A stretch of DNA of 51,339 nt from Monosiga brevicollis MX1 (Eukaryota; Opisthokonta; Choanoflagellata; Craspedida; Salpingoecidae). The notes under the pieces were generated by a model. The model was not told the DNA's origin, searched no databases, and was given only the letters and a program-made list of their open reading frames with translations. Positions 3,842 to 50,356 of this stretch are shown here, piece by piece. The stretch is from assembly GCF_000002865.3 (NCBI RefSeq), contig NW_001865060.1, positions 256,309 through 307,647 of the forward strand, read 5' to 3'. Made by a program: the position numbers and the translations under genes. How positions within the stretch are numbered: position 1 is the first letter of the stretch; each line of letters starts with the position of its first letter.

Positions 3842-3873
<32 letters not shown>

Positions 3874-9800: not shown

Positions 9801-10251
9801 GGGCGAGGAATTGACAAGCCAAGAAGTCGAGGGCTACGTGAAGAAGTTTGGTGGTGCCAACGGCTCTCTTAGCATCAACCAGTTCCGCGATCTGATGGTC
9901 CACCTCATTGGTGTCATCCATACTCAGCAGTCCATCCTCGATGCCTTCCGCTTCATTGGTCGCGGAGACGAATCCATGGTGGGTACTGGACTTCTGCCTG
10001 CATGTCTGTGTAGTATGCGCCACGATGGGCCTCACTGCCACTCTTCACCCTTTTCGTTTGACTTGATTTCATGTCATTTGCTTATCGCATTGAATGATTC
10101 TTGTTCCTCCCCTTCAACTCAGGTTGCAATGGAGAAGTTACAGCCACGATTGACCAAGGCACATTTCGATTTTATCGTCGCCTCACAACCCGCCACCGCG
10201 ACCGGGCAGATTGATTATCCCAAGTTTGTGGATAACGTTTTTGCTCGCTAA
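1080..10251 (+). CDS. Giant alpha-actinin-like actin crosslinker: 2 CH domains, about 16 spectrin-like repeats, EF-hands
   Basis: Sixteen exons join in phase: 1080-1118, 1238-1313, 1431-1705, 1807-1892, 2067-3066, 3173-3289, 3408-3489, 3584-3723, 3988-8151, 8278-8400, 8555-8704, 8830-8938, 9068-9213, 9339-9443, 9556-9978, 10123-10251. They give 7164 nt, or 2387 residues. The ATG lies in a CACCATGG context. CH1 spans about residues 6-115 (FTRWCNQRL, LIQLVEILS) and CH2 about 131-238 (MALCALIHKFRP); paired CH domains bind F-actin. About 16 spectrin-like repeats follow. The C terminus matches alpha-actinin. One EF-hand loop is canonical (DKDNSGSIERKE, residues 2267-2278), the next is degenerate, and a Ca-insensitive EF-like end follows. 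There is no PH domain, unlike beta-spectrin. Classic alpha-actinin has four repeats of about 120 residues. Here the repeats average about 127, so an antiparallel dimer (inferred from the family) would be several times longer. The single canonical loop suggests possible calcium regulation. Confidence 0.9.
3819..3877 (+). repeat. Poly-T tract in intron 8 of the actinin-like gene
   Basis: About 59 bases of almost pure T, broken by isolated C residues, lie in the intron between the exons ending at 3723 and starting at 3988. The tract is much longer than an ordinary polypyrimidine tract and sits more than 100 nt before the acceptor. It is probably slippage-derived simple sequence. Confidence 0.9.
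3988..8151 (+). repeat. Eleven tandem spectrin-like repeats within a single 4.2-kb exon
   Basis: Exon 9 encodes 1388 residues with no intron and holds eleven copies of a unit of about 127 residues (about 381 nt). Each copy begins with a D-D/H-L-A-R-type signature such as VLEDDLARE or FLEDHLAR. Each has a mid-unit tryptophan followed by AYL, and a YETSLSSWVYE-like stretch in its second half. The copies fall into classes by the text after the signature: A (Y-x-TRLLA-QH), B (FQ-x-VRL), C (QF-x-T-LQV-NH) and a divergent last unit D. Their order is A-B-C-A-B-A-B-C-A-B-D, which suggests expansion in blocks of two or three repeats. Confidence 0.8.
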
Positions 10252-14100: not shown

Positions 14101-17100
14101 TGCTGGACCCATAGCAATCATGCCCGGAGCGCACTCAGTCCAGGGTGAGCATCTATACAAAACGGGAGCACCAAGCACAAGTCACATTGTCAGAGGAGTG
14201 CAGCTTCAAAGACACATGTAACGGTTGACTTGAACGCGGGGAACGGCGCTTCCTCAACAGTCACAAAGCACACAGGGAAAAATTGCTCAAACGTAAAACG
14301 CGCGTACATCCGATCTGAAAAGTTGGTGGCGGGCTCCACTTCAAACGTGCCGGTGGGGCACGTGGACACTGAAGCGCAAACGCGGTCTCCCGTTGCCGAG
14401 CGGTCGGCGCTTTGCCGACACGGGGACACCTCGTACTCGTTGGCTTGACACACAGAACAAGAAGCACAAACACGGTCTGCGCCAACCATACAAGCCTGCA
14501 CCTCATACTCCTGCCCTACACGGCACGGTGTACAAGCTTGGCAAACTATGCACGCTCGATGAGGCTTGGACCACGGAGGTCCCAACACATATCATGCCAG
14601 CAAACTCCCGACGTGCCGCGACATACCGGCATCATGTGTAGCCGTGCAGGCTGCAAGCTGCTCTGTCGCAAGCTGCGAACAGTTGGTGCAGGCCAAACAG
14701 TGGCGGTCACGAACATAAAACCCATGTGGGCCTTCCGCGGGCGCAGATTCTTCCCATTCATTTGCCCCGCAGGCCGTCAACGTTTGACAACGACGATCGG
14801 TACTTGATGTGGCCGCCACCGACTCAAACTCATTGCGGCTGCAGTTGCGCAGTTCCACGCAAACAGCGTCGGCACTGCTGGATCCCATAAAAGCATATCG
14901 CTGCCACGGAAGCGCACAGGTGCGTCGCTTGCGGCATGACCCACCAACATGATCATTAAATGTGCCCACGGGACACTCACGGCAAGCAACATTCTGTGAC
15001 GCAGAGCCATTGCGCGCGATTTCCATGCCAAGCCCGCATGTTTGGAACGGTTGACATGCTTCATTGCCAGCTGTAGTTTTGAAGAAGCCTGCCCTGCAAG
15101 CCCCACACTGGCGGTTTGTCCGAGCTGTCGGTACGTTTTGGGGCTCCTCACCTGCTGTGCAGGTGGTCCAGGTTTGGCACGACACATTCTGATTCGGGCT
15201 GGACTTGAAGGTACCAGCGGGGCAGCTGGCACAGAGGCGATCCCGCGTGCGGGCCGCATCAGGTGCCAGGATCTCTTGTTGTCCAACTCCACATGGCGTC
15301 AAGGTCAGGCACGCGCCAACGTGGTACTGTGCATTGCTGTACGTGCCGGGGGGGCATGCCGCGCATGGTGTTGCTGGATCATAGTCATCGTCGCTGCTTC
15401 CAGGCATGCACATGTTGCAGTCACTAATCGTGCCCGCACGAGCATAAGTGCCGGGTGCGCACAAACTGCAGGCCGTAAGTGGGTCCGCATCCTCATCACT
15501 GGTTCCAGCTGGGCAAGAAACACACCTGCACACACGCAAGGCAAGCAGCCGAGTGAGGTAGAGCAAGGGTAGAACACTTGCAAAAGAAGCATTGCTTAGC
15601 ATCATCACGGCAGCGATGCATTGGCTCATCTTGTCGTTGAATCTTGTCCTCATATCGACTCGTTAGAAGGTCAACGTACCGGCGGTCGCTGGTCTTGTTG
15701 CCAGGGAAGGCCATCACCGTACCTGGGCGACAGATGCTGAGAGTACGACACACAGCATCCGACGTCGCTGTGGGGGCAATGACCTCAAATTCGTCTGGCG
15801 CACACGTGCTCACAGCCGCACACTGTCGATCGTGATAGGCACCGCAGGCTTCCACCTGATATTCAGTGGCTGCGCAAGGAGTGCAGACCCGGCACGTAGC
15901 CGTGGCATTCTCGGTGAAAGTACCGGCCGCACAGTGGTCCATACAGGTGCCCGCCGTGCTAAGCACCAGGTCGTTTCGGCAGCTGAGGCATTGGTCAGGA
16001 CCTGCTCCGCTACAACTAACGCAGTCCTCATGGCACGGAAGACAACTCGCAAGGGTCGCGTTGGGGTACTGGCCCATGGCGCACGTTGTCACGCAGGTGC
16101 CTTGGTCCGGTGCAAACACAAGACCGGTGGCACACGCCACGCAATCGGTGCTTGAGATACCCGTGCACGTCCTGCAGCTTGGGTGGCACGGAAAGCAGAT
16201 GGGCGATGTGTCTTTAGAACACGAGCCAATCAGAGTTTCATTCCTCAAGCATGCATCCGCTGTTGTACAAGGCGCACACACGCCATCGTCGCGTTGATAA
16301 GTACTCGAATTTTGCGCAAAGCAGGCTGTGCTGTTTGGGTTCGGCTCCACAGGCTCGGTTTCCTCAGCACGACAAATGAGAATCCAATCCTCGTGATCAT
16401 CAAGTTGTGTTGCACGCCGGCAGCCAGGCTGGACGTAGCACCATGCAAAGCCTGAACCATCCCAGTCCTGACAGCTGGCACCAAAGCCTTGGTCGTCAGA
16501 ATGGCCGCGACAGGCGCAAGACTGGTTCAGTCCAACTGCAGGTGCTTCGCATATGGCACCACGAGCAACGCTACACTCAGCATCCACCCAAAAACCGACT
16601 GCGTTCAAATAGACACAGCGAGCCCCTGGGGTGCCACTGCTCGGACTTCCTCTGGCCCAGAAGGTATCCGTAAGTAAACCATCCGTCTTGTTGTCAGCCC
16701 CATCGACCCAGTGGTAGAGGCTTTCCGCGTCCACTCGGTGCAAGCCCAGCCAAGCTGGTGCTTCTGCAAGGGCGGTTACTGCTTCGTTCTCCGCAGCCGA
16801 GTGAACGGAGGCAAGTACGGCGTCCTCACTTGCACAAGCTGCTTGGGCGGAAGCAAAAGACCGCGACTCGTTATCATAACGGTAGCAGTGGCCAGCGAAA
16901 AGCGTATATCCTGGTTGGCAGGAGAGCGAGGTGCTGGCGCAGGTGCGTTGAAGCTCAAATGCCCCACACGCATCCTGAGCACGGCAAACACGCCGATAGC
17001 GCAGTTGCTCATCGCCGGCTGTTGGGGCTTCTGGTTCGGCTTCTGGACACGACTCACTCACGTAACACCAGCGTTCTGCGCTACCAGCCCAGTAATCACA

Positions 17101-20100
17101 GTGGCCGCCGATGCCAGAGGCTCCGCCCAAGCAAGCACAATGTTTGTTGAGAGAAATCTGCCCCGTAAGACGATCACCACCCGTAGAAAGCGTCGCAGAT
17201 AGCTGGAAAGCAGCCACCGCGTCAGTCGGACGGCTTATCCAGGCGTCTGGCTTTGGCTGGATGGCAAGTCCACGACAAGGGGCGGTGGCATCGTAGACGG
17301 CAGCAGCCGCAAACAAACCCACGCCTCCCGAAGAGTCAAAGTCAACGGTAAACTGGACCTCTGTTCCAGCTACAGCCGTGACCAAGAGCTCAAGGCGTTC
17401 CACAGACGCGAGGGACATGGTTTCGTTGGTGGTGGCCGGGGTGCAAGACATGCTTCCCAACCATACGTCATCGACGACGAACGGTTTGTCCGGGTTTTCC
17501 TCCGCCTGACAGGCTCGCGTTAGCGAGAACTTGCCCCCCTCAGTGCCAAATTGACCCTGAATCTCCAGTCCGCTGGCTGCCTGCCGAACCGTGCCCGCTA
17601 TTTGAATTGTCGGGCGGCCACAGAGCGACATGTGAGGGCTGGCCACAATTGTTCAAACTTTCCTTGATTTCTGCGTTTAGTTTTTTTGTCGGATAACTGA
17701 CCGAGGTTCTCGCGAACAAAGGAGCGATCCGTGATGCCACTCCATGATGGATCAGGGCTTGTATACGATGCCGCAAAAGCTGATGCTGACGCTGTGATTG
17801 TGTAGTAATAGCTTGACTTGCCTATAAGATGTCGATTTGACATCAAAAACAAACAAAGGAACAAAAAGAAAAAAAAGTAAAATGCAGGGCGAAAAGTTGC
17901 GTTGCATCAAAGCCAAGCGCCTCGAGGCTGCGGGGCACATGGCGGTACAGCAGAATACCTGAAGATTCAAGTCGGCAACCTTTGGAGGTGTCACAATATT
18001 GGCCATGCACAAGCGTAGCCAAAACGAGGATTCGGGGCGAAACTTGCACCACCTACTCAAGATTGTATACGCGGACAGTTTATTCAATTATGCACGCTTT
18101 CCTGGCCACAATCGAATGGCACTCCGATCCGGGTGCAAGAGCATACCCGTAGCTCCATGGAGCCCCCGCAGGGTTGGCTCTCGCCATTGCGTAGCCAGCA
18201 GCGTGCGCCTGAGAAGGCACCGTGCCACGTTTCACCTTTTGCAAATACGTTTTGTGTAGGAGCCTCTGCCATAGATTTCCAGCGCCCGTTGAGGAATAGC
18301 CACTCAAAAAAGATTGACTAGCAATCAAAGGGAAGGGTGGTGCAAGAGTGGGTAGAGGGTTGGCACGCACCAGCTGTTGCAACGCAAGCTGCACTCGAGG
18401 TGCTACCCGGAAGAGATGCCTGGCCCAAATCGCAGGCAACGCACCGGGTGCGAGCCTTTGAACTCTGTTCAGTAATGCACAAGACACCAATACATGTATT
18501 GGCGTTTCGTGAGTACCCACGAAGAAGACCAACGACAAAGATTTTCTCAACGAGAACAGCCAGGATGCCTACATAGGTGTTGGCAGCACATGTTATGCAG
18601 CCTGTGGTCGGCGTCTGTAGCCCAGCAGCAGCCACAGATCCCTCTCTGCAAGGCCCAGTCGAGGCAACACGAGTTGCTATGCGCACAGAGCCAATGATTG
18701 GCACATAGACAACGCTCAGCTCCTTACGCTCTACCGCCTTGACAAGTGCCTGCATGGCCCCTGCGTTGCTAGTTGCGCACACCATGCCAAGGTGCCCCGT
18801 GCTGGCATCAGTGTACGTAGTCACTCTCATCTATTGCGCATACGCAACGGGGGTGTCATGGAATCTATGGCTTCATTTTTAATGGAAAAAAAAAAAAAAA
18901 CACAAAAAACAACAACAGCAGCAACTGCATTTTGGCATGGCGAGCACAGAGTCCTTACCTCGGCCAAAGCCGGAATCAAAGCAGCCACTTGCGATTGTAC
19001 CAATTGCTTGAAAGAAGTTCGGGCTGATGGCGATGATATGGTCACATTGAAGTCAAAGCTGGCCGTAACTGTGACATAACATGTTGATGAAAAGCATGAG
19101 TTGCGTTGTGTGTTACCCTCTAAGGCATCTTTGCACTGAATGTGCGATGGTCACGCTGCGGCGATGGTTAGAACTTGACGCTTCGACTGACCAATGCGCT
19201 CATAGTAATCCATCTGCCTGTGCTGATGGCACGTAAAGACACCGCCCTCGATCGAACTGGCGCTTGCACGGGTCAAATAGCAGTCACCCTCAACAGGTGA
19301 TCCAGGTTGGCCTGCCTCAAAACTTTGGCAGCAAAGGTCGTTCAAGCACAGCTGGGCGCACGCTTCAACCGAGTGCTGCTGCAAAAAGACGCCGCCCGTT
19401 CCTGCTTCGGAGAACGTGCAATTGGCTTGCTTTGCAAAGTAGATTTCACTCACTCTTTCTGTCGAGAACAAGGGCGCTATGAGTTGCTGCGGCGGACGAA
19501 TCTCCACCATGCCTGTGAGGGGGTTCTGGCAGATTTGGCCACACCACACCTACCAAATGACACGCGTTCATAGTGGTCCAGCTGCGAGATGGGTTGAAAG
19601 GCACCAGGGCTTGTCGTGTCCTTGGAATCGTAACTCAGCATGCAATCGCCCTCTTGGAATTGACCAACAACGCCGGCATCAAACGATTTACAACCTGCGT
19701 CTGCCAAGCAGAGCTTTGCGCATTCTTCCGGGGTGACGTGATCTACTGTATCCATGCGTACTCCACCTAGTTGTCAACAGGGGTGCTTTTGCAGGTCAGG
19801 GGGCCGTCGAGGCAAGGCAAGACGATGGGGTAGGCTGTGCTATGGGGGATGGCTCTCTGCGCAAGGAAGGGGGCCTGGCACAGGCTGTTGTACGTTGTAC
19901 ACGGGCCAAGTGCTGTACCTGCATTTGCACCGGCAATGTAGTGGTGGGCGTAGCGTCGAAACTGGTCCAGCGATGTCGTTGCATTGGCTCTACAGATATT
20001 ATGAAGCGTCATGTCGCGCCGTGTCAACAAACAGGCGTTCATTGATATTCTGACAAGTGTCAAGGCACTCACCGGCAGTCAGCAGTCGACTGTGCTCCTC

Positions 20101-26740: not shown

Positions 26741-29700
26741 TCATACGGCACTGTGGCACGTGCGCGTCAACGCAGAAGGAGAAGCGGCGCTACTTTCGGG
26801 GTTGTGGCCCGACGCCGTGGCATTGGGTGTCACTGAGTGAGCCTGGGGCGGGCTTTGGGGAGGTTGGCTGGCCACAAGGTCGTCAGGACGTGCCAAGAGC
26901 TGCTCAATCATGTCGCACACAGCCGGATTGATCATGGCAGCATGCTGCAAGAGTCGAAGACTCTCATCGCAGAGCGTGTGCACGGGCCACCAATATGCAT
27001 GTTTAGACTGCTCCTGCAGATACTCGCCCGCGTTATCACGAATGCAGACGAGCAGCATCAACAACTCTCGGACCGTATGCGCCAGCGTGGGCCAGGTGCC
27101 ATCCAAAGAGAGGAGGAGAGCCTTCAACACGAGAGCCGCCTCAAATTGGACGGCTGCGGCCGTGCGAAACAGCACAGCGCACCGCCCGAGCGTCTCGAGA
27201 CCCTTGCGACGCACAAAGCGCAGCGCGCGCACCGGCGAAGACACAATCTACAGAGCATCACATGCCACAGCTGGGCGTTAGTACCTCTGCCAGGTAGATA
27301 ACCACGAGCAAGCTCACAGACAGTTCACCCGCATTAACAGCGACAGCTAGCCCTGCAGCAAAGCTTTTGAAAAACCAACGACAAAAGGGTACCGACTGCG
27401 CAGCCCGCGACACGCTAACCTGATTGGCGAGCGCACGGCAGTGGTAGGTCATGATCCCGGCTTCCTTGCCGTGCGCCATGGTCCCGTTCTGGGCCGATTC
27501 CTCAAGCACACCCAAATCCCAGCTGCCAAGCCAATGACGCTGTCGTTCAAGCAGTTCGTCCACCCCCAACCGCAAAAAGCGGCCATGAATAGCGGGCGGT
27601 GGAGGAAGGGACGGGGACGAGTCTGATTCACGTCGAGCTAACCCCAAGTGGTCGCGAACGGCCGTCACAAAGTGTGCATGGTCCTCGTCCAACATCTTCT
27701 GGTATCCAGGCGGTGTCATGACTCCTTCATCAGGGCTCTCATCCTCTCCATCGCCGGCCCAGGAGGTGGCGTGCGGTGCTTGCGCCCCCAGCAGCTCTGC
27801 GTCATCGTCGCTACCGGCATCCGCTTCACTGCCAGCCTGGCTCTCCCCCATCATTGCCTGGCTCGGGCACCGCGCCTCCTCGGCATCAGCATCGTGGTTG
27901 CTGTCGGTACTGGCCGCCAGGTCCACCTGTTCATCGCCCACACCGTGCGATGGCGTGCTGGCAAGTTGCAGATCCATGCTGTAGCGTTGAAGGTTTTGAC
28001 TGCTGGGCCCGGCACTCAGCGCAGCACTAGATGTTGCCATTGTCGTCGCTTGCACGCTCGAGCGGCGCCCGTATAGGGAGCATGAGCCCTGGCCTGGGGC
28101 TCGAGCGCGGCTCAGCATCACGTCGTGGTCTTCCACGAGGCTTGCCAAGCCTGCTGACCCGGGGGCCGCTCGTGGTCCAGCCGTTGCGGGCTCAGCAAGA
28201 TTGAGACCCGTCACAGCGTCACACGAGTGACGTGAGAGAGTCCAAGGCGCTTCGGCAAAGATGGATGAAGCTCCATCGCGCCGAGCCGCCGCTGACAAGA
28301 CGGCGTTCACAGCGTTTTCTGCGCGGGTGGCGTTGACAAAGCCAGCGAGGTCAAGCGTCGCCATGGTGCGCGGCACGTTGCTTTGGGAGTCCAACGTCCA
28401 ATTACGAAGCGCCCCCATGAGCTGGGCCGGTGCAAACGTTGGAAGGACGAGGTCCGAGGCCGCCGTGCGAATGTCTTCTGGTCCTGCCTGAGACCCTCGA
28501 CCATGAGTGATTGTAGCCTCGTTGGAATGGGGACCACCTGCGGAGTTGGCGTCATGTGTCGATCTCACGTCTCGCCGCTGATACAAAAATACATCAACCA
28601 GCGGGGTGAGCGGAGCAAGGGATGCCGGTCGTATGACGCCAGCGCGAGGAGCCGGCTCAAACCAGGCCAATGGGGCACCGCGCTGCAGCATCACGGCCAC
28701 GGCATCAGCAGCTTGCGCTGGCATTTGCCGCTCAAGGCGTCGCAGGGCGGCAGAGATAAGCGGGCGACCGTGGCGGTCGGGCATGTGCAATTCCTCCAGC
28801 GCGGCACGATGGTGTTCAACCTCACGGGCGTCCAAAGCAGTATCGACATCCAGCAAACGCGCGTAGCCCATGACCAAAGCAGCATTGAGACGGATCGCAA
28901 GCTGCACCGGCTGCAGCGAGCGGCGGCCATTGGTGTTGCCCAGCATGTTGCGTGGGTGCAATTGCCGCCAGAGAGAAACGGTAGCGAGCGCTTCATCCAC
29001 GGGTCCCTCGTCCCGTTCAATGGCCCGAAGCATCTCACTCGGATACAAACGCCGCAAGAGCGTAACCACATCGTTGGCTTTCTTCTCCTCTTGCCGACGT
29101 GCTTCAGCCGTGAGATACATGGTGCGAAGCCAGGACGACGGAAGCGGCGTGCCCGCCGACGCGCGCATCAAGACCAGGAAAAACCAAAAAGCAAACCGCT
29201 CCACGCGCTGCTCGCCGCGGTATCGGGCAAGCAGCGAACCAAACGCTTTGATAGCCTGGCTGCCGTCAGCACCCACGAGGGCTTGGACAATCGGATTGTC
29301 ATCGGGGCGAGACGATACAAAGATGGCCAGCACTTGCTCACCAAAGTGGATTGTAACCTCCGTGACGAGCCGCGTCGCCATTTCAGCCACGTCGCACCAC
29401 AGCGGAGGCTTGGGCTCTGAACCAACGCTATTTGCAATGGCAAGCAAGGCAATGCCAACGAGATGGGTCACGACGCCTCGGGTACCCAGGCGACGGCGTA
29501 CACTGGGTTCCTTGGCCCGTAAGACCAGCTCGTAAGCACAGTAAGCGGCATGATACATGACAGCAGCTTGATGCGGATGCATCACGGCCGCTGCAAAGAC
29601 GACGGCGAGACCATCCTCTTCCAGCATCTCCATCGCACGTCGCGAGGACGTGAGCATCTGCAGGATGCGCCAGCAAACATTCCAATTTCCCAGTGGAAAT

Positions 29701-32700
29701 ATACGAGTAAAAACGGTGTTGTGAGGCGTGAGACAGGCAAGAGAAGAGGAGAAAAAAACAAAAACGGAAGACCCCGTGGCAGCCGAGCACAACTGTCGTC
29801 ACTCAATGCACAGACCTGATCGGCGAGTTGGCGACAGGCAATGGCGACGATGGCCGGAAAGGACATCTCATCAGCAAGCATGGCCAACAAAAGGCGAAGG
29901 CCCAAGAGGTCGGGTGAGCATTGGGGAGGCAGAGGGCGTGGACCCCACGCATGCGGCAGTGCGCGGTCGCAGTCGGGACATGTTGCTCGATTGCCCAGGC
30001 TCCAATCTTGCACGCAAAGGAGGTGTTGATAGTGACCGCAAGGCAAGCGTACCACAGGCAAGGCCAAAGAAGTAGCGTCTCGGGCCTCGGACAAGGTGAG
30101 CAGGGGGTCCGTGCAGCACGGGCAAATCTTGCCGTGGGTTGACGACGGGACAAGCCGTCGTAATGTCGCCAAATCGCCAGCAACACTTTGCTGCTGCAGG
30201 TATTCCAATACCGTCGGGTTGGCCTTTGGTGGACTGAAGTTAGCGCGAAGCTCATCAATCAAGGTGTCGCGCTCTTGTCGTAGCGCCGCCCGGGGCCCTG
30301 CTAGACCAGGGCGGGCCTCGTCGTCGCACAACAGGCCCGCCAGCTCAGCCAATCTCTCTAAGTGAGCATGGTGGCGATTCAGCGCCTCCACGTGATGCCG
30401 ACCGTACCGCGGGGGTAGGGCGTGATACTTGAAGGCAAGGCCTCGCTCAGCCAGAGTAATCAGCGTGTCACAAATGGCCACGTTGCCGGAGGAGCCAGCT
30501 GCAGCACACGAGTGCTTCCCGTCGTGATCGGGCAAGACCAAGTCCCGCAACAGGTCGTAAAGCATCGCACGCTTGCCCACTTTGGTGGCAACCTCCACAG
30601 CGCCGCTCCAAGCCGAGGCAACAACGGAAGCTTTGCCCCGACACGCAGCCTGACGAATGTCACTTTGTGGATCCCAGGCCAACTCACGCAGCCAGTCCTG
30701 TGTGGTGCTCATCTCTTCTGCACCAAGGTTTTGCGCTTCGAGGCGACCTGGCTGTGGGTGATCCGCCGCTTCCGGTGGCTCGCGTTGCGCTGGGATCGGT
30801 ACTTTCGCTGAATGAGCCGCTGCTGGCGCGAGCGGATTGTTAGAGGGGCTGGGTTGCAGGTGCGCTACTGGTGCCAGCTCGGATTTGAAGCTCTGAACAT
30901 CCTGTGCGGCAGGCGAGGGCGAAGAGTGACGGGAATTCACAATAGAAGGGGCTGAAGCGGCCACGTGCTTGTCAAAATCTTTTGGTGTCGGTGAGCCTGT
31001 CGCGTGTTTGCTGCAGGGTGGGCTCTCAGGTGGCGAATTTCCAGACGCAGAAACAGCAGCTGGGGCAGCGGACATGCAAGGCGGGTCGGCAGGGGTGGCA
31101 GACGGCTGGATCGAGGCCCCAGACGACGACGCGGCGGCGGTGTGCAAGAGTACCCAGACTTCCTCGGCCTTGGGGCTGTGCACACGGCGTTCGCTGGCTA
31201 CGCTGTGTGCAAGTTGGGTCCAAGAGCAATGGTGCTCGGGCAGAGCAGGCTGGCGTAAAAGGCACAAAAGGAACCAAAAAGCCATGCGATCGATCTCTGG
31301 CGAAGCAAAGTGGCGAATGGCGGCAATCACAAAGCGCACGAGGTGTCCAGTGCACACTTCGTCTGGATGCAGATTTTGGTCAGGTTGAAGCTGTAGCTGC
31401 TGCTCAGCGAGCTGCAGACGCTGAATCAAGAGAGTAGGCTCGACCAAGGCCAATTCGGTGATGAGCCGGGAGGCTAGGTGAGCCAGATCGTGGGCAAGAC
31501 GCTCGTACTGCTCTTTCGACTCGATGCTGGCGACAGACGGCATGGTACCCGAGGTGCGCAGAGCCAGGCCGAGGCTGAGAGCGTTGGCCAATGCGAGAGT
31601 GGCACACAATAGCATAGAGTCGAACTGGGCGGCGGTATTTAGAAGACCTGGGGTGGATACGTCCTTGACCTTGAGCAAGGTCTCGTAGATGGTGAGAACC
31701 GCATGGTAGCAGATATCAAGACGGTTTGTGAAGCGGCGCATTTGTGACAAGATGAGAGGAAGAGCGTCATGTTGAAGGACGACGGCCGCACGGCGTGCGC
31801 TTGTGAGGCTGTGATCGGCGAGCGCGCAGAGGGCAGCAAGGCAGCACTGGGGCTCGATGTTGGGGTCGCGGAGTGTGGTGATGAGCTGCTTAATGAGGCG
31901 CGAGGCACAAGCGTTGGGCCAAAGCGGGGGCAAGGGTTTCGGATCACAGGGTCGCTCCAAACGACTGGCCAGCAGATGGCGCAGCTCTCGGCGACGTTGC
32001 TCAAATGCCTCGTTACTCATGCTTGTCGAAGCAGGGTCAGCATGAAAGGCGATTTCTTCAAGCAAGTGCTTCAAGGGGTGCAGTGAACCGATGTGGTGGC
32101 GGCGGTAGGCCAGAATGGGGCCGTGATGAAGGTGGGGGACGCCAGCTTCAATGAGAAGAAAGAGGCCTTCAATGACACGATTACTACCAGCTTTGGAGAC
32201 GGCGTTGCGTCCGTGCGCGTCAGCGGCACACAGGTCCACGCCGCGATACACAAGGCGACGAATCTCCCCAACGTGGCCGTTGGTGGCGGCGCTGTGAAGT
32301 TGCGCCTCAAGAGGAGAGAGTGTCCGAGTGGTAAAAAAGTGGATGCCATCGCGAAACTTTTCAACAAGCAATGACTCGCGAGCGGCAGCAGGCGCGAAAT
32401 TTGAAACTGGGGTTAACACGCCAGGCGCTGGGTCGCGGGCGGGCAGCTCACATGAAGGACCACCTGGGGCAGCACCGGCCAATCCACCCTCTTTCGCACA
32501 GGGGGCTGCGTCGTCAGACGCATCTTGACTCCCTGAAGTGTGCGGGGAGACGGGTAAAAGAGAACTGCTCGGAGAGCTGCTGGGTGGGCAAAGGCTGGGA
32601 AAGCTGCTCTGAAAGTCTGGGTGGCGGGCGTTGTAGCTAGTCGAGGAAAGGGCCAAGGCGGAACGCTCAGATCGAGAAGCACGCAGGGAGCCGATACCAC

Positions 32701-33145
32701 CAACGCCGTCGTCTGTCATGGCGACTCGCAACGACAGCAGCAAGGAAAGAACGGTAGTTGCGGGGGACCATGTTTCGTTGTGGTATCCCGTGGTACCCTG
32801 TAGACAGAGGGCTTTGCTGGTCTCAAAGCGGCCTGAGGGTGCAGACAAAAGAAGCGAGCGAGGTGAGACGGCACCGGGCCTGCCAGGGTGTGCGAAGGCT
32901 CGAGTACAAGAGCGTGGCAGCGCACCATTGGGTGTGAGGATGAAGATGTCAGGCGCCTGGGCGGGGTAGCGAGGCGGGAAGACAAGGCGACCCCAGTAGA
33001 GGCCACCCTCGTAGCAAGTGCCCGTTTCGCCTGCAAAGCAAAAGTGCCATTCTAACAGGTTATCTTCCCGAGGCGCCACGTGCAGACCATCATCAGCGGC
33101 AGCGAGGCAGGCGCGCAGCTCCTTTTGAAGCCGGCGAATGGCCAT
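26741..33145 (-). CDS. Single-chain E2-RING protein: UBE2J-type ubiquitin-conjugating domain, ankyrin-like and armadillo-like segments, RING finger
   Basis: Four exons join in phase: 33145-32926, 32832-29816, 29657-27420 and 27247-26741, giving 5982 nt, or 1993 residues. The ATG at 33145 (GCGCCATGG) is followed at once by the usual E2 helix 1 (AIRRLQKELRAC); an in-frame ATG at 33202 is possible. Residues 1-150 match the UBE2J/Ubc6 class: EDNLLEWHF, FPPRYP, then ILTPNGRF and the catalytic Cys83 in KALCLQ, then ETWSP. UBE2J proteins have TPN or TAN in place of HPN. The usual C-terminal membrane anchor is absent. Ankyrin-like and armadillo-like segments follow. A RING-H2 finger lies at residues 976-1027 (C976, C979, C1004, H1006, H1009, C1012, C1024, C1027). 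More armadillo- and ankyrin-like sequence reaches the C terminus. E2s charge and transfer ubiquitin and RINGs recruit E2s, so both steps in one chain is inferred. Confidence 0.82.
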
Positions 33146-34983: not shown

Positions 34984-37900
34984 ATGCGGCTCGACGTTGT
35001 TGTTATTTGGCTGGCCTTGCTTTCAGCATCCGCCGTGGCTGGTACGTCTCCCTTCTGGACTTGCATGTGGTGGAGCCGCACACGGCACATACCTGGTCTG
35101 ACATCTGCGCACTCATCTTCAGCTCCGCTCACCTCACTTTGCTTGAACTGACTGGCACATGGTACACGCTGACCCCTTTGACGTAGTATCGTCCGAGCTG
35201 GGTGCTCAAGTGGCTCTCAATGCCTCCTCTGGCCTGCAAATCGATAACGAAGATATTGTCAAGACAGACGCTCGCGATTCGTGGACTGCAGGTGTCATCA
35301 GCCAAGTCAGGGCAGACCTCTCAAGCGCGCTGTCGGTCGGCGTGCGCATAGTACCAGCCCATGCCGGTGATAGTCTCATGGTTGGATTTTCCCGCGAGGT
35401 ACCAAGCAGCCTGGCCGACTATCGCTCGCTTGACTTTGCTCTGCATCTCTCCCTCGCCTCTGGCGTGCCCGTACTCCTGGTTTGGCGGCGAAACACAATC
35501 CTGGGCCGTCTCGAGCAATCCTTTGGGTCAAGCGACCTTCTCGATGTCTACGCCGATCAAAGTGGCCGCTTTGCCGTCGCCCTCAACAACGTCACCATCT
35601 ACACGTCCACCTTCTCCCGCGACTACGATGCCTACTACTTTCGTGCCGTCTTCTCGACACCCAACGCCACCATCTCCCGCCCTCAATGGCTCACAGCCCA
35701 GCTATTTTGCCGCACAATGACCTGTGCCGACGCTGGCCAATGTCATCCCGCCAGCCCCTGCAACTTGGGTGTTTGCACCACCACACCAGCTTCCGGTATC
35801 CCTTGTAACGACGGCAACGCCACTACAGTTGATGATACGGTAATTCTGTCGTGCTTTGTTACTTCTCATCCTTCAGCCTTTCGTTTCCATCTGTCCCATC
35901 GCACACAAGGTGGCAGGATCTCACCCACTCACTGACTCATGCACCCATTCATCTATTCCCTCATCCTTGCTCACTCTGTGTTTCTCCCCGCATCGGCTTT
36001 GTTCTTGTCTCTTGTGAATGTCACCGACTACGATGCCAATGGATACGGGTGCAGTGCCTGGACGGCATTTGCCTGGTCAGTCAACCTAGACTGGAGAGCC
36101 GTACGACCCGGGGCAGGAACCGCCTCTGCGCTGTTGCTCATGTCTCGTGCTTGATGCCTGCTGCCCACTTTCTTCTCTGCGTAGGGCCGTGACCCATGCG
36201 CGGGCGTGCAATGCCCCGGGGATCAATGCCACTCCGCTGGCCACTGTGAAGGTGGTCAATGCTATGCCGGCGCAGTGTTAGGCGATGGAACACCGTGCGC
36301 CCTGACCAACACCAGCACGAGTATTGACGCGGGGATTTGTCTTGCGGGTGTCTGTCGTGCCCCTATTACCACGACGTCGTCCACTTCTACCACCACAACA
36401 TCCTCCACAACCACCACGTCGACAACCTCCACCACCACGGATCCCTGTGCGTAGCTCGCTCGTTTGCCCTGATCGAAACTCGCCTCGCATGTTGGACATT
36501 CACGGCATGCTTAACAGCACCCATGCGTCCACGCCCTCCGCTCTGACTCTCACGCTGATACCACATCTTGCTTTTGTCGACGTCTCCACATTTGACAACA
36601 GGCCACGCGGTGCAGTGTGCATCCGATTCATGCCATGAACCTTCTGTTTGTAGCGGGGGCAGGTACGTGCTTCTTCGGGTCTCGCGTTGTCACCGCAGGA
36701 AGAGTCGGGACAGGATGCCAAAGCTCATTCCTTCTTGTACAATGCGGTTTGCTTTTTTTTTTCTCTCTCTCCCTGTCTTTCTCTCTCTCTCTCTCTCCCT
36801 GTCTTTCTTTCTTTTTCTCTTTCCCCTGGTTCTGTCTGTTTCCTTGCGGCCTCGCCCGTGCAGCTGCTTCGCCGGACCGGCCCTAGCCGATGGCTCAGCT
36901 TGTGACGACAACAATCCCATTACTATCGAGTCGCTGTGCTTTGACGGTGTTTGCGTGTACGTCATTGCTTCTTCCCCGCCACAAGACACCGTCTCGCCAT
37001 TGACGGCTTCTTTGCAAGGCTCATTCAATCTCCGCCTGGCTACAGTGGGACAAAAACGCGGTGCTTCAACGTTACTTGCGAACCCCGCGCTTGCTATGCT
37101 GCGGGCATCTGCAATGATCAAACGGGCCAATGCGACTACACTGCTCTGCCCGAAGGCACGGATTGCGATGATGGGGATAACGTCACCATCGACGACAAGT
37201 ATGCCCACCACGCATGCCCTTGTGGCTGGCTTCTAGTTGCCGTGTTAAGTCTGGCCCATTTCATGCAGTGACTCGTTTCTCACATCTTTGCCCGTGGCTT
37301 CATCGCGTGCCTATTCTGGGCACTTTCGAATAGGTGTTATTCGCATGTTTGCACGGGGTTGGATCCCTGCTTTGGCTTTGACTGCGTGCCACGCAGCCAG
37401 TGCCACTTGGCAGGTGTGTTCATGCCGCTGCTGATTCACACCTTTCCCCTTTCAGTGTGCTCTTCCTTTCAAACTTATATTCCACCACCTCACTGGGTTA
37501 GGCGAATGCATCAATGGTGCCTGCACCAACCCCGTTAAACCCGTCAACACGACGTGTGCGTCTCAGAACTTTGGATTGACCTCTCCTCGAATTGCCGATC
37601 TGCCCCTGGCACCGCCAAGTTTACTTTGCCGCCTCTCATGCTTTCGCATGTGATGAATGGGCTTCTCACACACAGGCGATGATGGAGATAGTACAACCGT
37701 ATTGGATGCTTGCCAAGCCAATGGTGCATGTGTGGTGCGTCGTGCATCTTGTCACTACCTGCTCGCCACGACATGCGTTGATGCTGCCCGTTTCACACTG
37801 TTCGTAGGGTGTAAATTTGTGCGCCAATGTCGAGTGTTTGCCGGTGTCTACCTGCCATCTTCCTGGCGCCTGTGATTTCCAGACTGGTCTCTGCTCAATG

Positions 37901-40900
37901 GGACCCGTCAAGAGCGATGGTAGCGCGTAAGCCCTGAGGACTTGGAGCGCGCCGTCAAAACTCGCATGGGGCGTCGTCTCACCCCCTCTTGCTCGTCTGT
38001 TCCTCACCCGCCCCCTGTCTCCTCCGCCCATAATCAACTGCGGCGTAGCTGCGACGATGACAACAACCGTACAGTGGAAGACCAGTGCCTGGATGGTGTT
38101 TGCACTGGGGTTGACCGGGTAAGCTCGTGTTTCCGCTTGTTCATCTGCCTACTCTGCCAAACTTGCCGTTGACCTTGAATATGTGCCTTGACAGTGTCCC
38201 ACGCCCTGCACGGCACTCTCCGTTTGCCACGCTCCGGGTGACTGCGACCTTTGGACCGGCATCTGCACCAATCCTTTGCTGCCTGACGGCACCCCGTGCG
38301 TTTCATCTGCACTCCCCGGTGCCAACTTTTAGACGCACAGACGCTCACCCGTCCACGGCTCATGGGGATTGGTGCGTAGGTGTGACGACGATGACCCCGA
38401 GACAACTGGTGAGCGTTGTTTCGATGGGATATGCTCGGGCGTTCGCCTTTGTGAAAATGTGGTCTGCACGCCGCTGTCTCCATGCCACGATACGGGCATA
38501 TGTGATCCCAACACGGGCACTTGCTCCAATCCCGTGAAAGCAACGGGCATCTTATGCCCGGACACCGACGGCGATGTGTGCACAACCGCCTCTTGTCACG
38601 TCGGGGAGTGCCTGCAAACGTCGCCAACTGCCTTTGGTACGTCTCATGATTTTTTTTTTCCGCTTTTCACACACGAGCCCTCTCGAACTTGACGTCAATC
38701 GTCAGGCAGGACCCGCTCTCATTCCTTAAATGTCTTATTCATTCGTCTTAGGTGTTGGCTGTGATGATAACAACACTTTGACCGACGATGACATTTGCCT
38801 TGGTGATGGCACGTGTGCCGGTGAAGGTCAGCTGATTAGTTCTTGCAAAGTTTCATCTCAGATCGTGTGCTTGGCCGCCGTGGCTGAGCTGAGCTTGACC
38901 GCCACTTTGCTGCGCTTGCAGATCGCTGCATCGGTGTGACTTGCATTGCCATTGATGAGTGTCACGAACCGGGTACCTGCGCCAATGGAATCTGCAGCAA
39001 CCCTGTTGCAGAGGATGGAAGTAACTGCAGCACTGTGGCCTTTGTTGCTCGCAACCCGCGCGTGAGTTTTCCTTGCCCCACCTGATGCCCAAATGTTTCC
39101 AAGAGGTAGCAAATTCTCCGTGAACTACATGTAAGCTGACCTCTTTCTTCTTCCCTCCATTTTCCCTTTTCAAGTGTGAGGACGGCGTCTGCATTAGTAC
39201 CCGTGTCTCGCCGTCGGCCTGTCTCTTGTCCGTGGATTGCCGCAATGGCCAGGTAACCCCCGATTCCGTTTGAGCCGCCTGTTTCGGTCTTTGGTTGCTT
39301 GTCATTCGTCAACGCTTGACACATCGTTCGGCTTGCTTGATGACAGTGTCCGCTTTTTCCGCTGGCCCCCGATGGTTATCCCTGCGTTGATGTGGACGAG
39401 AATGAGTGCACAGCAGCCGAGTGTCGCTTTGGCACGTGTATCCAAAATGTTTTGCTTGACAATGGCTCTCCGGTCAGTCATTGGTGCCTTGCTCATCACA
39501 TCACCGCCCACCTGCGACTTTTGACAGCAACCTTGTGCTATTGCGTGCCTTGACAACCATCGTTAGTGCACCGATAATAACGCGGCTACCGAAGATGAAT
39601 GTGTTGGAGGCGTCTGCGTTTCGATCGACCTGTGTGAAGAGAACGATGTTGTGTGCGAGAGCCCACCGACGCCCTGCCATGAACCGGTGGGCACTTGCTT
39701 TCGGGGCAACTGCTCCTACTCGTTCAAGCTCGTCGGGGCTAGCTGCGACGATGGCAATGAACAATCTGGTGTTGGCACCTGCAATGCTGCCCATGAGTGC
39801 ATTGCTTCATGTACGTCTTTTTTGCCTTCCATCTCGGTCAGCCTATGGGCTTTCTCAATCACCGGTGCTCATTTCAATGTTTGCAGTCCCGGCTACGGAA
39901 TGTACTTTGGCAGGAACTTGCGTCAACGGCCTCTGCCCAGCACCAGCCAACCGCACGGAGGGCACCGCCTGTACAGCTATCAACGAGGACACATGTACCG
40001 AAGCCCTATGCTTTGGTGGTGTCTGCGTGCAAAACATCCCTCGCGCTGGTTTGTGATTCGGCTTCCATTTTGATGTGCCAGAATGTCTTTGATGCTGGTC
40101 TCACAATGAACGCCGTCTGCAGCCACCAACATATCTTGCGATGATGAGGATGAGAGCACAGACTTTGATACTTGGTACGTTTGTGTTTGCCTCATATGCT
40201 GAGCGGTGTGCTCGCGCACTTCTTTGGACCACACATTGCGAGCTTGGCTTTCCCTAGCCATGGGGTTTTTGAAAGTGTCTTGTTGCAATCTCATCTCATC
40301 TGATCTCCCTTGTGCTCTGCACCTTGCCTCGGACCACATTTTCCTGATGACCTTGATCATTACAGTCAAGCGGGCATCTGCCGAGGCATTGATTTGGTTG
40401 GTTTCGATTGTTGCTCGGCCCGTTTGTCCAACCTGGTCGCTTTTTTTGACAGGCGGGGGGCCTTTTTCTGTTCATTTTTGTATTTTCTTTAGTGCGTTCG
40501 TGACAACGTAACTTGCGCACCCCCCGAGAGTTGCCGAGCTCCCGGCGTCTGCTTCCGAGGCACCTGCAGCTACGACCTTTTGCCGGTGGCCACGCCCTGT
40601 GATGACAACAACGAACGCACGACCACCGATATTTGCCTTGCCAATGGCATTTGCATCGGCGAAGACCTGTACGCTTTTCGCTTTTCTTGATCCTGCATCC
40701 TACTTTTGACTTGAGCAATGGACAGCGGCACAACACCACCTCCTCACGCAGGCTCGAACACCCCTGTATGTAGATGCGTCACGGAAGACATCGTATGCAG
40801 CCCACCAAACCAGTGTCAGCATGGAGCTGAGTGCCTGCGTGGTTCATGCCTGCCTCCGCTCAACATCACCGCGGGGACGCCATGCGATGATGAGGACGCC

Positions 40901-43900
40901 GAAACCAGGGACGATGTCTGCGACGGCTGGGGTACTTGTGCCGGAATTAACCCTTGCATCGTGAACAACATCACCTGTGATGTTGCACCCAGTCAATGCC
41001 ATATGACCAACGGCACATGTTTTTTGGGCTCATGCTCGTACGAATTCCGACCTGTCAACAGCAGGTACGTACGTGTATTGTTGTGTGGCAGGGCTACGAG
41101 CACCGCAGAGGGCGTTGGTGTGTGTCTTTTTCATCCAGGTCTGCCTTGATGCTCACTTGGTCCCACTTTTTTTCTTTTTCCTTTTCCATGTGGACAGCTG
41201 TGATGACGGGATTGAAGCCACCGATGATGACATGTGTGATGGCTTTGGCACGTGTTTGGGCGTTGATTATTGTGTTGCCTGGGCGGTGACATGCGAGCCC
41301 TTGAATCAGTGCCACCAAGCGGGTGTCTGCTCTCATGGAGAATGCTCCCCCAGCCTGCCCCTACCCAACGGCACGATCTGTGATGATGGCTTCGCTCATA
41401 CCATCAACGATACGGTGAGCCTGGCGCTGCCAGTCACTGCCCGACCCCTCCCCACTGCGTTGCACGCCCGCTTGGCTTTTTGATTTCATTTTAATTTTTT
41501 ATCATGCCTTTCTCACTTTTGTTTCCGGGGGGTCGCACGCTGCTTCTTGACTGGTAGTGCTCGGCGGGCGAGTGCAGTGGGCTTGACTTGTGCGCAGACG
41601 TAAACTGCACTGCCTTGTCACAGTGCCACAGTGTCGGCGAGTGCGATCCCCAAACGGGTTTGTGCAGCAACCCTTTCCGCCCGGCCGGCCTGGCCTGTGA
41701 CGACGCTGACAACCGCACGACCAGCGATCAGGTAAGACGTGCTACCGTGGTTGTGTGGGACACGGCCGATCAGAGCGAATCTTTGACTCTCCTTTGCTTG
41801 CCATCTCTGATAGTGCATGGCCGGTGTGTGCGCGGGTGTTGATCTTTGCGTGGCCAATAATGTCACATGCCCACCCATCAACCAATGCCATGAGCCGGGA
41901 ACTTGCTTCCAAGGTCAATGCACCATCTTGCCAAAGCTCGACGGCACTGTGTAAGTGTCGACTCTTGGCAGGCATTGGAACATGGTTCCATAAGGGACAG
42001 TGAATACTCATTCCCATCCTGCACCTGCTTGTCGGTCCTCCACCCCATTGGACAGATGCGATGACGGTCTGGCCAATACGCAAAATGACGTCTGCACCGG
42101 TGGCCTTTGTGCTGGCATTGATCCGTATGTTTTACGACCATGCCTGTCTTGCTGTAATTGGCCCCAGGCCATGCCTCCAGCCTCGCTAAGGCATGCACAA
42201 CCGTATGGAATCCATGCTTATTCTGCTCGCCTCACCCCCCTCTTGCTTTTTTTTTTGTGATCCAGATGTGCGGGGATCGTCTGCCAGGCCCAAAGTGTGT
42301 GCCACGAGGTAGGCACTTGCCGAAACGGAGTGTGTGATGATCCGTTCCGTGCTGCTGGCAGTATGTGCGACGATGGTGACAGCAGCAGCTACTTGGAGCA
42401 GTGTTTCGCCGGTATTTGCGTGCCACAGTTGGCTTGCGACCCAAGCACGTGTGTAGCCTGGCGTGAGCTGCGTGGCTTGGAACCCACCATGAACTTTGGC
42501 CTACGCCGAGTGGCACGGGTGGACGGCTGGAACGCCTCGGCCGTGTCGCTCGATGGCTTGTCAACCAACGATACCCGGGCCGGGGTGCGCTTTACTCCGG
42601 AACAAACGGATGCCAACCTCGCTTTTGGCCTAGGCTCAGAGGTTCTTACATCGCAGTTTGAAGACATGGCCTTTGCCGTGTTTTTGGCAGAGGGCGGCAA
42701 CGCCTTTGCGTACGAAGCTGGACGCTTCAAGAAAAGCTTGGGCACGTATGCCCGAGCCTCGACGCTCGAGCTCCTGGTGAATAGGCAAGGACGAGTTGAG
42801 TTTGTGGTTGATCATCAGCTGCGTTACACGAGCGAGTCAGTGGTGAATCTTCCCGTGCATGTTGATGTGGCCCTCTTCGGCGGTGCCGCTGTTGTATCCA
42901 ATATATCCTGGGTCACGAAGCAGGAAGCCTACTGTGCACGTCAGACCTGCGCACCTGCCACCGACTGCTTGCTGGCTGAGCAGTGTGTACTTGGCGAGTG
43001 CGCGAGCCCCGTACCCCAACCAGTCAACACCACGTGTACTCTCAGCGACGACACCCTCCGAGACTTGCGCTGCAATGGCGCCGGAACCTGCATTGGCACG
43101 CGTGAGTCTGGCTTTTCTGCTTGTATGCGTGCCGACGGTGATCGCTACGCTACCTCTCACTCGCATCCGTCATCTCGCCCCATGCAGCCAAGTGCGCTGG
43201 TGTCATCTGCCCGACGCCAGGGCAGTGTGAGATGCCAGTCAGTTGTGAACCCACCACGGGTCTTTGCCCGGTACTGCCCTTCCGACCCAATGGAACTGAG
43301 GTAGGTGCCGATCCAGAGGTGCTTCCAAATCTCATGGTAATAGCTGTCTTTGCTGAAGCGCACTGGTCGGCAAATAGCCATTCACCCTTTTGTGTCGTTG
43401 TTGGTGTGTTTGCTCAGTGTGATGACGATATTTTTGAGACGCTCGAGGACACCTGCCAAGCTGGCGTTTGTCGTGGCATTGACTATTGTGACGCCGTGGT
43501 ATGCGACAGCCCACCCACCGTTTGTTTCGAGGCTGTTGGTTCATGTTTGCACGGCAATTGCAACTACACCTTTCGAGGCATCAACGCCACGTAAGTATGA
43601 GCGATCGTTGGAGCTTGGCGCCAACGCTTGCAGCCCAGCATCATAATGTTTCAAAACAATCTTTGCCACATTTGATGCATGACTGCCTTTGCTTTGCACA
43701 CGCCTTGCAGTTGTGATGACGGAAACGAGAGAACGACCAATGACCAGTGCCAAGCTGGTCAGTCATAACTTGCAATTTTCAAAAGTGTTTCCACCAGAGA
43801 GGAGGGGAGGGGGCCTGCTTTTTTTTTTTTTTTTTTTTAATTGTTTGGGGGGCGGGGGGTCTGAGCGAGGGCTAGCTCACAATGATCATTGATGCTAGAT

Positions 43901-46900
43901 GGGGTATGCGCGGGTGTCGACCTGTGTGACGAAGTCGTTTGTGCTCCAAGCCAATGCCAGACCAACGCCTCATGCCTACATGGCATTTGCTCGTTTGACA
44001 ACTATCCATCAGCGTATCTCTGCAATGATGGTGCGTTGGTTATTGACAATCTACAACCCACAATGCACTTCCTGCGTTCCAGCAAGCGCCTGTCCTATCG
44101 CTGGGCAAGGGTCCGCTGCATCACCTCACCCTGCTGACAAATGTGTTGATCCGGCCTTTCTATTCGTATGGCCACTGTTCACGACAGGCAATGCCTCCAC
44201 CTTCCCGGATACATGCGAGGCTGGAGTGTGCGTGGGACAAGACCCTTGTCTGGGAGTCGACTGTCGAGCGCCCTCAGATTGCTACGAGGACGGCACATGC
44301 GTGCTTGGCGAGTGCGTCTTTCAGTTTCGACCAGCAAATACCAGCTGCGATGACAATAACAACCGCACCATCGACATGTGCGACGGCAATGGCGCGTGCA
44401 TCAGCACGGACCCCTGCCAAGGTCTTGCCTGCCCAGAGCCCACAGATCATGAATGCCAATACTCAGAAGCCTGCTTTTTGGGCCAGTGTGGTGACATTAT
44501 TGACCACCCCTTGGGGACGGCCTGCACCTTTGACGATGGCAACCCCTGCACACGCGGTGGTTGTATTGCCGGTTCCTGCACCAGCTTTCACGTAGCTGAC
44601 AACACGACCTGCAACGATGGGTGTGTCCCCTCAACGCTTCATCGTGGCGTCGCAAGGCAATGGTATGCGCAGATCTTATAGTGTGCTTTTGGCTGGCCGC
44701 ATTCAACTAGGAATGTCAACACCGTCGACGACCGGTGTCTTGCCGGCACATGCGTGGGGACTGATCTTTGCCTCAACGTGGAATGCCAACCACTGACGCA
44801 GTGTCACCAGGTACTTTGCATCAAGCCGCAACGTCAAAGGGCTACCTTCGAAATCTTCCTAACATCATCACGCTTTCCCGTTTTTTGTTTGCATTTGCGC
44901 TGAATAGACCACAAGCTGCGTGGCTGGTTCGTGCCCAGTGTTGCTCAAGCCGGACGGCGCTTTTTGTGACGATGGCAACCCAGAAACCATCAATGACGTG
45001 TGCACGTTGGGGCAATGCGCGGGCTTTAGCCTGACCTGCACGCCCCCGAGCTCAGCTACTGAGGCGGTTCGCTTCAGCAACGGGTGTGGAGGTTTTGACC
45101 AAGAGACGCGTTGGCTGTACACGGCACAAGCCACCAGCGGCTGCGTTTGCCGTTCCGGCACACTGGGCGGCCTTTTTGCTGGTAAGACTGCCTTGACTCG
45201 CCTTGATGCCTTGGAAGTTGAGCAAATTCAATGGACATTTGCGACGACAGAGAGAGACTCACATGGGTATTTGCTTTTGGGCACCCCCTCCCCCGTCCGG
45301 TCGTTTTCAGATCAATCGGGTGCGATTCATACAGCTACGCAGTGCGCACAGGCCATCTGCGGTGGCGGCTCATTACTGCAATTTGATCAGTGCAGTTTCA
45401 ACGGCGAGATTGTCAGCACTGGCACCTGGCAGGAGAGCACAGTGACGGTGCCGCTGGCCTATCAGGATGTTTTGTGCGAAGAGGATGGCACTCCCATCAC
45501 GCAGCGACCCGCCACATCCACGGCAATTACCACGACAGTGACCACGAGCTCGACGACCAGCACCATATCAACAATCGGCAGCACACCACTCGGGACGACC
45601 ACAGTCCCTTTGTCGTCTTCGAGTAGCTCTTTGGGTTTAACAACATCGAGCTCTAACACTCGTTCTCCTGGCATTTCCACGACGCCTGCACACACCTCAA
45701 CCTCTTTTGCTTCTTCTGCCACCACGACTTCTCCTCATGCTTCTTCCTCTACTACTCCTACAACAACAACGACCACCACCACCACCACCACAACAACAAC
45801 AACAACAACAACAACGACGACGACGACAGTCCCGCCAACAGCGCGGCCGGCGACTGGGGTGGAGCACGTCATTCAATGGAACGTCAACTTGCCTTTGGCT
45901 GAGTTGCATCAGCGCATCAGGCTGGGCGATAGCATGACCTGGCAATGGGACTCTGATGCCATGCCCATCAACGTTGTCTCTGGAACCAGTCGCATTCCTG
46001 ATGGTCGCTTCACCTCAGGCCTCCCCCGTTATCGTGGTTTGTACACCCACTCTGCCACGTTTCGAACTGTCGGCACTTACAACTATTATTCACAATTCCA
46101 AGCCTACCTTGCCGGCTCGGTGACTGTCTTCAACCCGGTCCGCATCATCGAGACCTCGGCCACCTTGCCCGACAACGTGGTTGACTGGAGTCTGCAGTAC
46201 AATGCCCCACCTCTCCACGTGGCCACGGGCGCAGTTGTCCGCTTTCAGTGGGACAACAATGTGCCTTTGGACATTATCTCTGGCTTACCATCAGACGCAA
46301 CATTGGGCGTGCTCTTCAGCAGCCCGGCTGCTCGGTCCAGCAACTTGACAGTTGCTTTCGAGGTCTGTACAAACGCGCGTGGTTGATGTTGTGCCTCCTT
46401 GCCCCTTCTTTCTCTGTGCATTTCAACTCACCGGAGAGAACAACTTTGCTTCCATAGGCGGAAGGTCGGTATTACTTTCATGCATCGCAATACAGCTTTC
46501 TGCAGGGGCTGATTGTTGTCGAGGGTATGTTTTGCCCTTCTCTTTTGTCACTTGCCGCAGCTTTACTCGAGCAACGGCATCCGACTCACGCCAAGTCTCC
46601 CGTTGTACCAATAGATGCCGCACCCACTACAGCCACACCTGTGATTACCACAGCATCTTCAACCACCTTGACTACCACCACCACTACTACCACCACCACT
46701 ACCACTACCACTACCACTACCACTACCACTACCACTACCACCACCACTACCACCACCACAACAACAACGCTGCCCACAACTACAACACCAAGGATTACGA
46801 CCACGACTGCTGTGTTCAATGGGACCACCGTGCTGGCAACCGTGGAGGGCAACGCGGCCCTTAGCATGTTTGATCAGCTCCTGTCCGGCTCGTCCATTGT

Positions 46901-50219: not shown

Positions 50220-50356
50220 GAACCCCGCCACTCCACGCTGCTCCACCCTCCCCACCAAACCCAGCGACCGCAAGCCAGCCGCCATCACCACCATCACCAC
50301 CAACAACAGGTCCGAGCCATGCGCCGATCGCGCAGCACGCATCCGAGAAAAAAAAG

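Follow-up and report, generated by a model that had tools for sequence, protein, structure and literature searches.

The minus-strand gene at positions 33145-26741 of the window (the whole stretch of 51,339 nucleotides analyzed here) encodes, with a probability that we place at roughly one half, a single large and apparently soluble E2/E3 hybrid in which a J-like E2 is joined in cis to a RING finger. Both elements that define such a hybrid, a UBC domain and an E3 domain in one chain, were found at the level of the gene. The gene model, built from the genomic sequence, consists of 4 exons coding for 1993 amino acids, and all three introns are of the GT..AG type. Rebuilding the model confirmed the coordinates, the exon structure, and the residue numbering of the initial annotation. 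The features of the gene, in the direction of transcription, are as follows.

32926..33145, minus strand: exon 1, aa 1-73, from the initiator Met into the UBC domain
32833..32925, minus strand: intron 1 (93 nt, GT..AG), which keeps the frame and contains no stop codon
29816..32832, minus strand: exon 2, 3017 nt, with the E2 active site, linker, module 1, a second linker, the ankyrin-like part of module 2, and the RING
32804..32806, minus strand: codon of the catalytic Cys83, which follows ILTPNGRF and aligns with the active-site Cys of Ubc6
32780..32782, minus strand: codon of His91, equivalent to Ubc6 His94 in the alignment
32321..32632, minus strand: linker of low complexity, aa 141-244, with an open frame
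32063..32332, minus strand: ankyrin-like portion of module 1, tested as aa 241-330, with an Ank_4 match at 252-288 (E = 0.059, below the cut-off)
31073..31927, minus strand: armadillo-like portion of module 1, aa 376-660, which aligns with module 2 at a score of 178 (0/300 shuffles)
30158..30697, minus strand: ankyrin-like portion of module 2, aa 786-965, which aligns with module 1 at a score of 68 (0/300 shuffles)
29969..30124, minus strand: RING-H2, Cys977 to Cys1028, with pattern and PDB matches and a Pfam match below the cut-off
29966..29968, minus strand: Asp1029 at the linchpin position (Arg400 of HRD1), from the alignment with HRD1
29085..29962, minus strand: armadillo-like part of module 2 (aa 1031-1270), split by intron 2
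29658..29815, minus strand: phase-0 intron 2 of 158 nt, following RQLADQ
27420..29657, minus strand: exon 3, the remainder of module 2 and the beginning of module 3
26843..27584, minus strand: armadillo-like part of module 3 (aa 1771-1960), split by intron 3, score 85 against module 2 (0/300 shuffles)
27248..27419, minus strand: phase-0 intron 3 of 172 nt, following RALANQ
26741..27247, minus strand: exon 4, the end of module 3, a polar C-terminus, and the stop codon

The linkage of the two domains was assessed from the open frame. Read from the start codon at 33145 without any splicing, the genomic sequence has no stop over 1187 codons, a stretch that includes Cys83 as well as the RING. In 30 simulated sequences of 51 kb with the dinucleotide make-up of the gene (one strand, three frames), the longest open run had a maximum of 633 codons and a median of 306. 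Since the unspliced frame is open through both domains, the E2-RING link is independent of all three introns. The initial annotation had stated that only the 3017-nt exon needs to be real for the two domains to be linked, and the data support an even stronger version, in which the link holds with no intron spliced. The distance of about 890 residues that it gave between Cys83 and a RING-H2 in the same exon was measured as 894 residues.

A J-like E2 gene followed by a separate ankyrin-RING-armadillo gene, the two sharing a frame by chance, would account for the same domains, and we consider this quite unlikely. An intron or a promoter within exon 2 is compatible with the sequence alone, and the linker of approximately 100 residues is of low complexity and is not marked as coding by its codon usage. 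The coding frame of the linker ranked first among the six frames (0.053), but noncoding intron 1 reached higher values in two frames (0.091 and 0.081), and this test therefore does not discriminate for the linker. Set against two genes, however, are the 1187 open codons, far above the simulated maximum, and the distribution of start codons. No in-frame Met is present between residues 112 and 345, the segment downstream of the E2 in which the Ank_4-like residues 252-288 fall, so that a gene beginning in exon 2 after the E2 could not encode these ankyrin-like residues. They would require a start at Met112, which lies inside the E2, or in an upstream exon; as far as the sequence tells, either is possible as an alternative start.

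The excision of intron 1 creates a contiguous TPNGRF motif, as in Ubc6 and UBE2J2. Retention of this intron would insert 31 residues beside the active site of the E2 and leave the frame open. Introns 2 and 3 occupy matching places in modules 2 and 3, both in phase 0, and this shared position, together with the duplication of the modules, supports both introns. A first model of 2038 amino acids contained a third intron of 37 nt, which was replaced by the 172-nt intron because the junction of the latter matches that of intron 2 when the duplicated modules are aligned. The Pfam scan of the whole protein used the 2038-residue model, and the E2 and the RING are upstream of the place where the two models differ. 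Antisense to exon 3, at 28296-29420 of the window on the plus strand, there is an open frame of 374 codons, which most likely just mirrors the coding strand.

The E2 had been annotated as a UBE2J-class domain with its catalytic cysteine at position 83, and both its likeness to UBE2J and the position of the cysteine were confirmed. The Pfam profile UQ_con matched residues 5-112 with an E value of 1e-11 (45 bits, cut-off 27). Among the best 60 of 276 PDB matches, Ubc6 (9en5, E = 1e-27) and UBE2J2 (2f4w, E = 1.2e-25) ranked first and surpassed the ordinary E2s, which began at E = 6.7e-13, by 12 to 14 orders of magnitude; this J-class likeness refers to solved structures, and UBE2J1 was outside the comparison. 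The alignment with Ubc6 and UBE2J2 revealed that the GRF motif, Cys83, His91, and Trp95 are kept, whereas the spacing between the Cys and the His is 7 residues here and 6 in both reference proteins. Gln85 occupies the position of Ubc6 Ser89, and Gly116, Gly119, and Ile120 those of Glu119, Thr121, and Thr122, the Thr-flap residues thus being absent. Where Ubc6 has the loop YPYKPP and UBE2J2 has FPFKPP, this E2 has YPAQAP. Loops of the YPYKPP type have a role in RING contact, which may be weaker in this protein.

Passages of PMC11649903 describe J-class E2s as sharing the GRF motif, an insertion of fixed length after the Cys, and a His that activates hydroxyl groups, with conservation of the Thr-flap restricted to the J2 branch. 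According to the same passages, RING stimulation of Ubc6 towards serine is wholly lost in the S89A variant and severely impaired by changes at Glu119, Thr121, and Thr122. The family alignment, as described there, omitted sequences of more than 500 residues and therefore would not have included the protein studied here. Because GRF and His91 are kept, the insertion is longer, and Ser89 and the Thr-flap residues are changed, the E2 is by its sequence J-like, though not a standard member of the J class. His91 suggests that hydroxyl side chains might be targets besides lysines, which we put forward as a possibility since other residues that Ubc6 requires for this chemistry are changed. The alterations at Ser89, in the Thr-flap, and in the length of the insertion would also suit a decayed, inactive E2-like domain serving in binding, but this is very improbable in view of the retention of Cys83, GRF, His91, and Trp95 and of a UQ_con score far over the cut-off.

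The initial annotation had also noted the loss of the tail anchor, and we agree: a C-terminal hydrophobic anchor is absent, the last 43 residues being polar and the eight best hydropathy windows all lying upstream. Four hydrophobic windows exceed 1.7, and their location within the armadillo-like parts means that an association with membranes is possible.

The RING contains all eight zinc ligands in a C3H2C3 arrangement (C-x2-C-x24-C-x-H-x2-H-x2-C-x11-C-x2-C, residues 977-1028), and none of 20000 shuffled versions of the protein showed the general RING-H2 pattern. In a six-frame scan, the pattern occurred at no second place in the window. The comparison with the PDB placed 6f98 first (E = 3.6e-6), followed by chains labeled HRD1 (2e-5); 6f98 is labeled merely "E3 ubiquitin-protein ligase," and its aligned letters are identical to those of the HRD1 chains. 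Unrelated immunoglobulin chains enter this list from E = 0.0096. The CxxxW feature, with Trp after the sixth ligand, and the CPxC feature are retained. Cys979 is found between the first two ligands, where the residue is usually hydrophobic. The Pfam profile zf-RING_2 remained under its cut-off of 27.3 bits, both in the long model (19 bits, E = 0.0017) and in a piece of 155 residues (21.4 bits, E = 0.00031), and a fold prediction from the single sequence, with a pLDDT of 42, was too poor to inform on the cross-brace fold. The description of this segment as a complete RING-H2 thus stands as far as the ligands and the HRD1 match are concerned, whereas the Pfam profile falls short; by profile search, the UBC fold is recognized above its cut-off and the RING is not.

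The remainder of the chain consists of duplicated ankyrin/armadillo-like modules, as determined by Smith-Waterman alignment and shuffling. In addition to the scores listed above, the armadillo-like parts of modules 1 and 3 gave a score of 54, reached in 3 of 300 shuffles. The comparisons show that the putative scaffold expanded by duplication, and, within module 2, the RING separates the ankyrin-like part from the armadillo-like part. A BLASTP self-comparison of the 2038-residue model returned the identity match only. Several further candidates were rejected. A lost RING in the spacer of module 1 was unsupported, since 27 of 500 shuffles reached the score for the RING region and 191 of 500 that for the RING core. 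The same applies to a lost RING in module 3 (124/500 shuffles) and to a third ankyrin-like part (43/300 shuffles against module 1 and 20/300 against module 2).

The repeat-like, duplicated nature of the segments annotated as ankyrin- and armadillo-like was thus borne out, whereas the two names rest on weak matches. The ankyrin-like part matched designed ankyrins in the PDB with E values that add up many repeats, and single stretches of the top match had an i-E value of 5.8 at best. None of the three armadillo-like parts matched a Pfam repeat family, and a PDB profile search gave 0 matches. A model of module 2, obtained from an alignment of two sequences that misaligns the ankyrin-like parts, had a pLDDT of 51 and predicted a helical armadillo-like part, without the RING. 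Foldseek placed degron-bound armadillo structures (ZYG11B and ZER1) first for this low-confidence model, with a best E value of 0.013 and 0 matches at E = 0.001; the best 50 of 674 matches also included plakophilin 2, beta-catenin, other helical repeats, and designed proteins. An alignment of armadillo-like parts retrieved 72 stretches in viral contigs and 51 in prokaryote genomes, and the E2 domain gave 13 pattern matches in viral contigs; 0 were confirmed in any of these searches, and absence from such non-eukaryotic collections says little.

Published data on linchpin residues provide a framework for how the two domains might cooperate. Passages of PMC7667886 identify residue 400R of Hrd1 as the linchpin and report that Ubc7 depends on it, a Glu linchpin causing only minor stimulation, whereas Ubc6 has a high basal activity and is stimulated without a clear correlation to linchpin identity. 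The independence of Ubc6 is relative, since, in the same passages, Doa10 with an Arg linchpin was fastest even for Ubc6, significantly above His or Glu. Doa10, which has a poor linchpin, pairs with Ubc6 and still elongates with Ubc7; in ER-associated degradation, it primes through Ubc6 and elongates through Ubc7 (PMC7667886, same passages). The presence of Asp1029 at the linchpin position, together with the reported linchpin dependence of Ubc7 and the large independence of Ubc6, is the reason to propose, by analogy, that the J-like E2 may act in cis with a RING that stimulates little, in the way that Ubc6 pairs with Doa10 in trans.

In the scheme that we envisage, the N-terminal J-like E2 would accept ubiquitin from E1 onto Cys83, as its motif implies, and the ankyrin/armadillo-like modules would recruit substrates. 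The RING-H2 of module 2 would keep the E2~ubiquitin, whether of the same molecule or of another copy, close to the bound substrate. With its acidic linchpin, it would stimulate little and mainly position the E2, which would itself supply a high basal activity. The "rate-driven pairing" of Ubc6 and Doa10 in ER-associated degradation would then be found in one chain without a tail anchor. We propose tentatively, and with clearly less confidence than the hybrid itself, a soluble chain of a J-class E2 and a RING in which the acidic linchpin is tuned only to the fused E2 of high basal activity, largely independent of the linchpin and off the ER membrane. The changes in the E2 count partly against this proposal, because S89A abolishes and changes at 119, 121, and 122 impair the stimulation of Ubc6 towards serine in the passages cited above. 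The initial annotation had suggested a self-contained or self-regulated ligase; this reading may apply, but it is qualified by the lack of an Arg linchpin in the RING and by the departure of the E2 from the J-family pattern.

Two other roles of the RING were weighed against this proposal. The RING may recruit a second, chain-elongating E2 or dimerize, so that the J-like domain would prime the substrate and its own RING would not activate it. This agrees with the Doa10 precedent of priming by Ubc6 and elongation by Ubc7 and with the 894 residues between Cys83 and the RING, but we judge it unlikely, considering that the linchpin is Asp and that a Glu linchpin stimulated Ubc7 little, even though Doa10 elongates with Ubc7 in spite of its poor linchpin (passages of PMC7667886). 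It is similarly doubtful that the RING has no role beyond that of a structural zinc site and that the E2 itself modifies repeat-bound substrates in the manner of UBE2O. The absence of an Arg linchpin, the unusual Cys979, the Pfam score under the cut-off, and the altered equivalent of Ubc6 Ser89 are in line with this, as is the acceptance of UBE2O and BIRC6 as E2/E3 hybrids in the parts of the literature cited below; on the other hand, the eight ligands, CxxxW, and CPxC are intact, and the nearest solved match, HRD1, is an active ligase.

This architecture was compared with known systems. Ubc6 and UBE2J2, the best solved-structure matches (best 60 of 276), have GRF, the active-site Cys and His, and an N-terminal UBC in common with this chain, which differs from the Ubc6/UBE2J class by the lack of a tail anchor, the extra residue after the Cys, and the changes at Ser89 and in the Thr-flap, and from J-class E2s by some 1850 further residues that include a RING. 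HRD1 has the closest RING among solved structures, with Arg as linchpin instead of Asp. Doa10 resembles this protein in its poor linchpin (His in Doa10, Asp here) and in having a J-class E2 as partner. In HRD1 and Doa10, however, the E2 is separate, whereas here it belongs to the RING chain, in which no multi-spanning membrane region was recognized. XBAT and Mind bomb are ankyrin-RING ligases and plant PUB-ARM proteins are armadillo U-box ligases, all with a repeat scaffold and a RING-type domain as here; to our knowledge, they are without an E2 domain. By these descriptions, the present chain is distinguished by the presence of both repeat kinds in duplicated modules. BIRC6 and UBE2O have their UBC towards the C-terminus and, as far as we know, are neither J-class nor equipped with a RING.

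BIRC6 and UBE2O nevertheless combine a UBC and E3 function in one chain, as here, and passages of PMC10903993 and PMC13061254 treat such E2/E3 hybrids as an accepted kind. An E2 and an E3 in one chain are thus not new, but no description of a J-class E2 with a RING was found among the matches listed for the open-licence PMC literature (titles and abstract beginnings). The initial annotation knew of no described protein with this exact order; among the matches listed, this applies to the J-class and RING combination and not to one-chain E2/E3 proteins as a kind. The passages seen of a review on the evolution of ubiquitin signaling (PMC11354881) contain many ubiquitin fusions and no UBC and RING chain, and a survey of eukaryotic ubiquitin domain architectures (PMC4327156, seen in part) may hold such a chain in its supplementary tables.

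Normally, E2s encounter their RING ligases in trans, and the rules of this pairing are hard to isolate. If real, this chain, with one E2 fixed to one RING, would be a natural test of how far a RING has to activate its E2 beyond positioning it; by the published data in the passages considered, an Asp linchpin should suit Ubc6-like E2s better than Ubc7-like ones. It would also imply that a J-class E2 can shed its membrane anchor and owe its range of substrates to repeats within its own chain.

The neighboring genes in the window are of different kinds. Their TNFR-type, C-type lectin, fasciclin, FG-GAP, and alpha-actinin-like domains, taken with short introns and a GC content of 51 to 61%, would fit a choanoflagellate. 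An alpha-actinin-like gene is present at 1400-10248 (plus strand), with two calponin-homology pieces, spectrin repeat matches in an open frame of 1407 codons, and EF-hands. The region 12431-17652 (minus strand) combines a C-type lectin domain and an ephrin-receptor-like stretch with six cysteine-rich stretches of the TNFR type, the latter spread over three open frames, and is possibly one large cell-surface gene. One or more cysteine-rich, probably secreted genes lie at 35000-48302 (plus strand), where C-DDG-type motif repeats were seen by eye and three open frames had no Pfam match; a fasciclin domain was observed near 46.9-47.2 kb. An array of FG-GAP repeats was found at 48945-50450 (minus strand; E = 1.2e-86).
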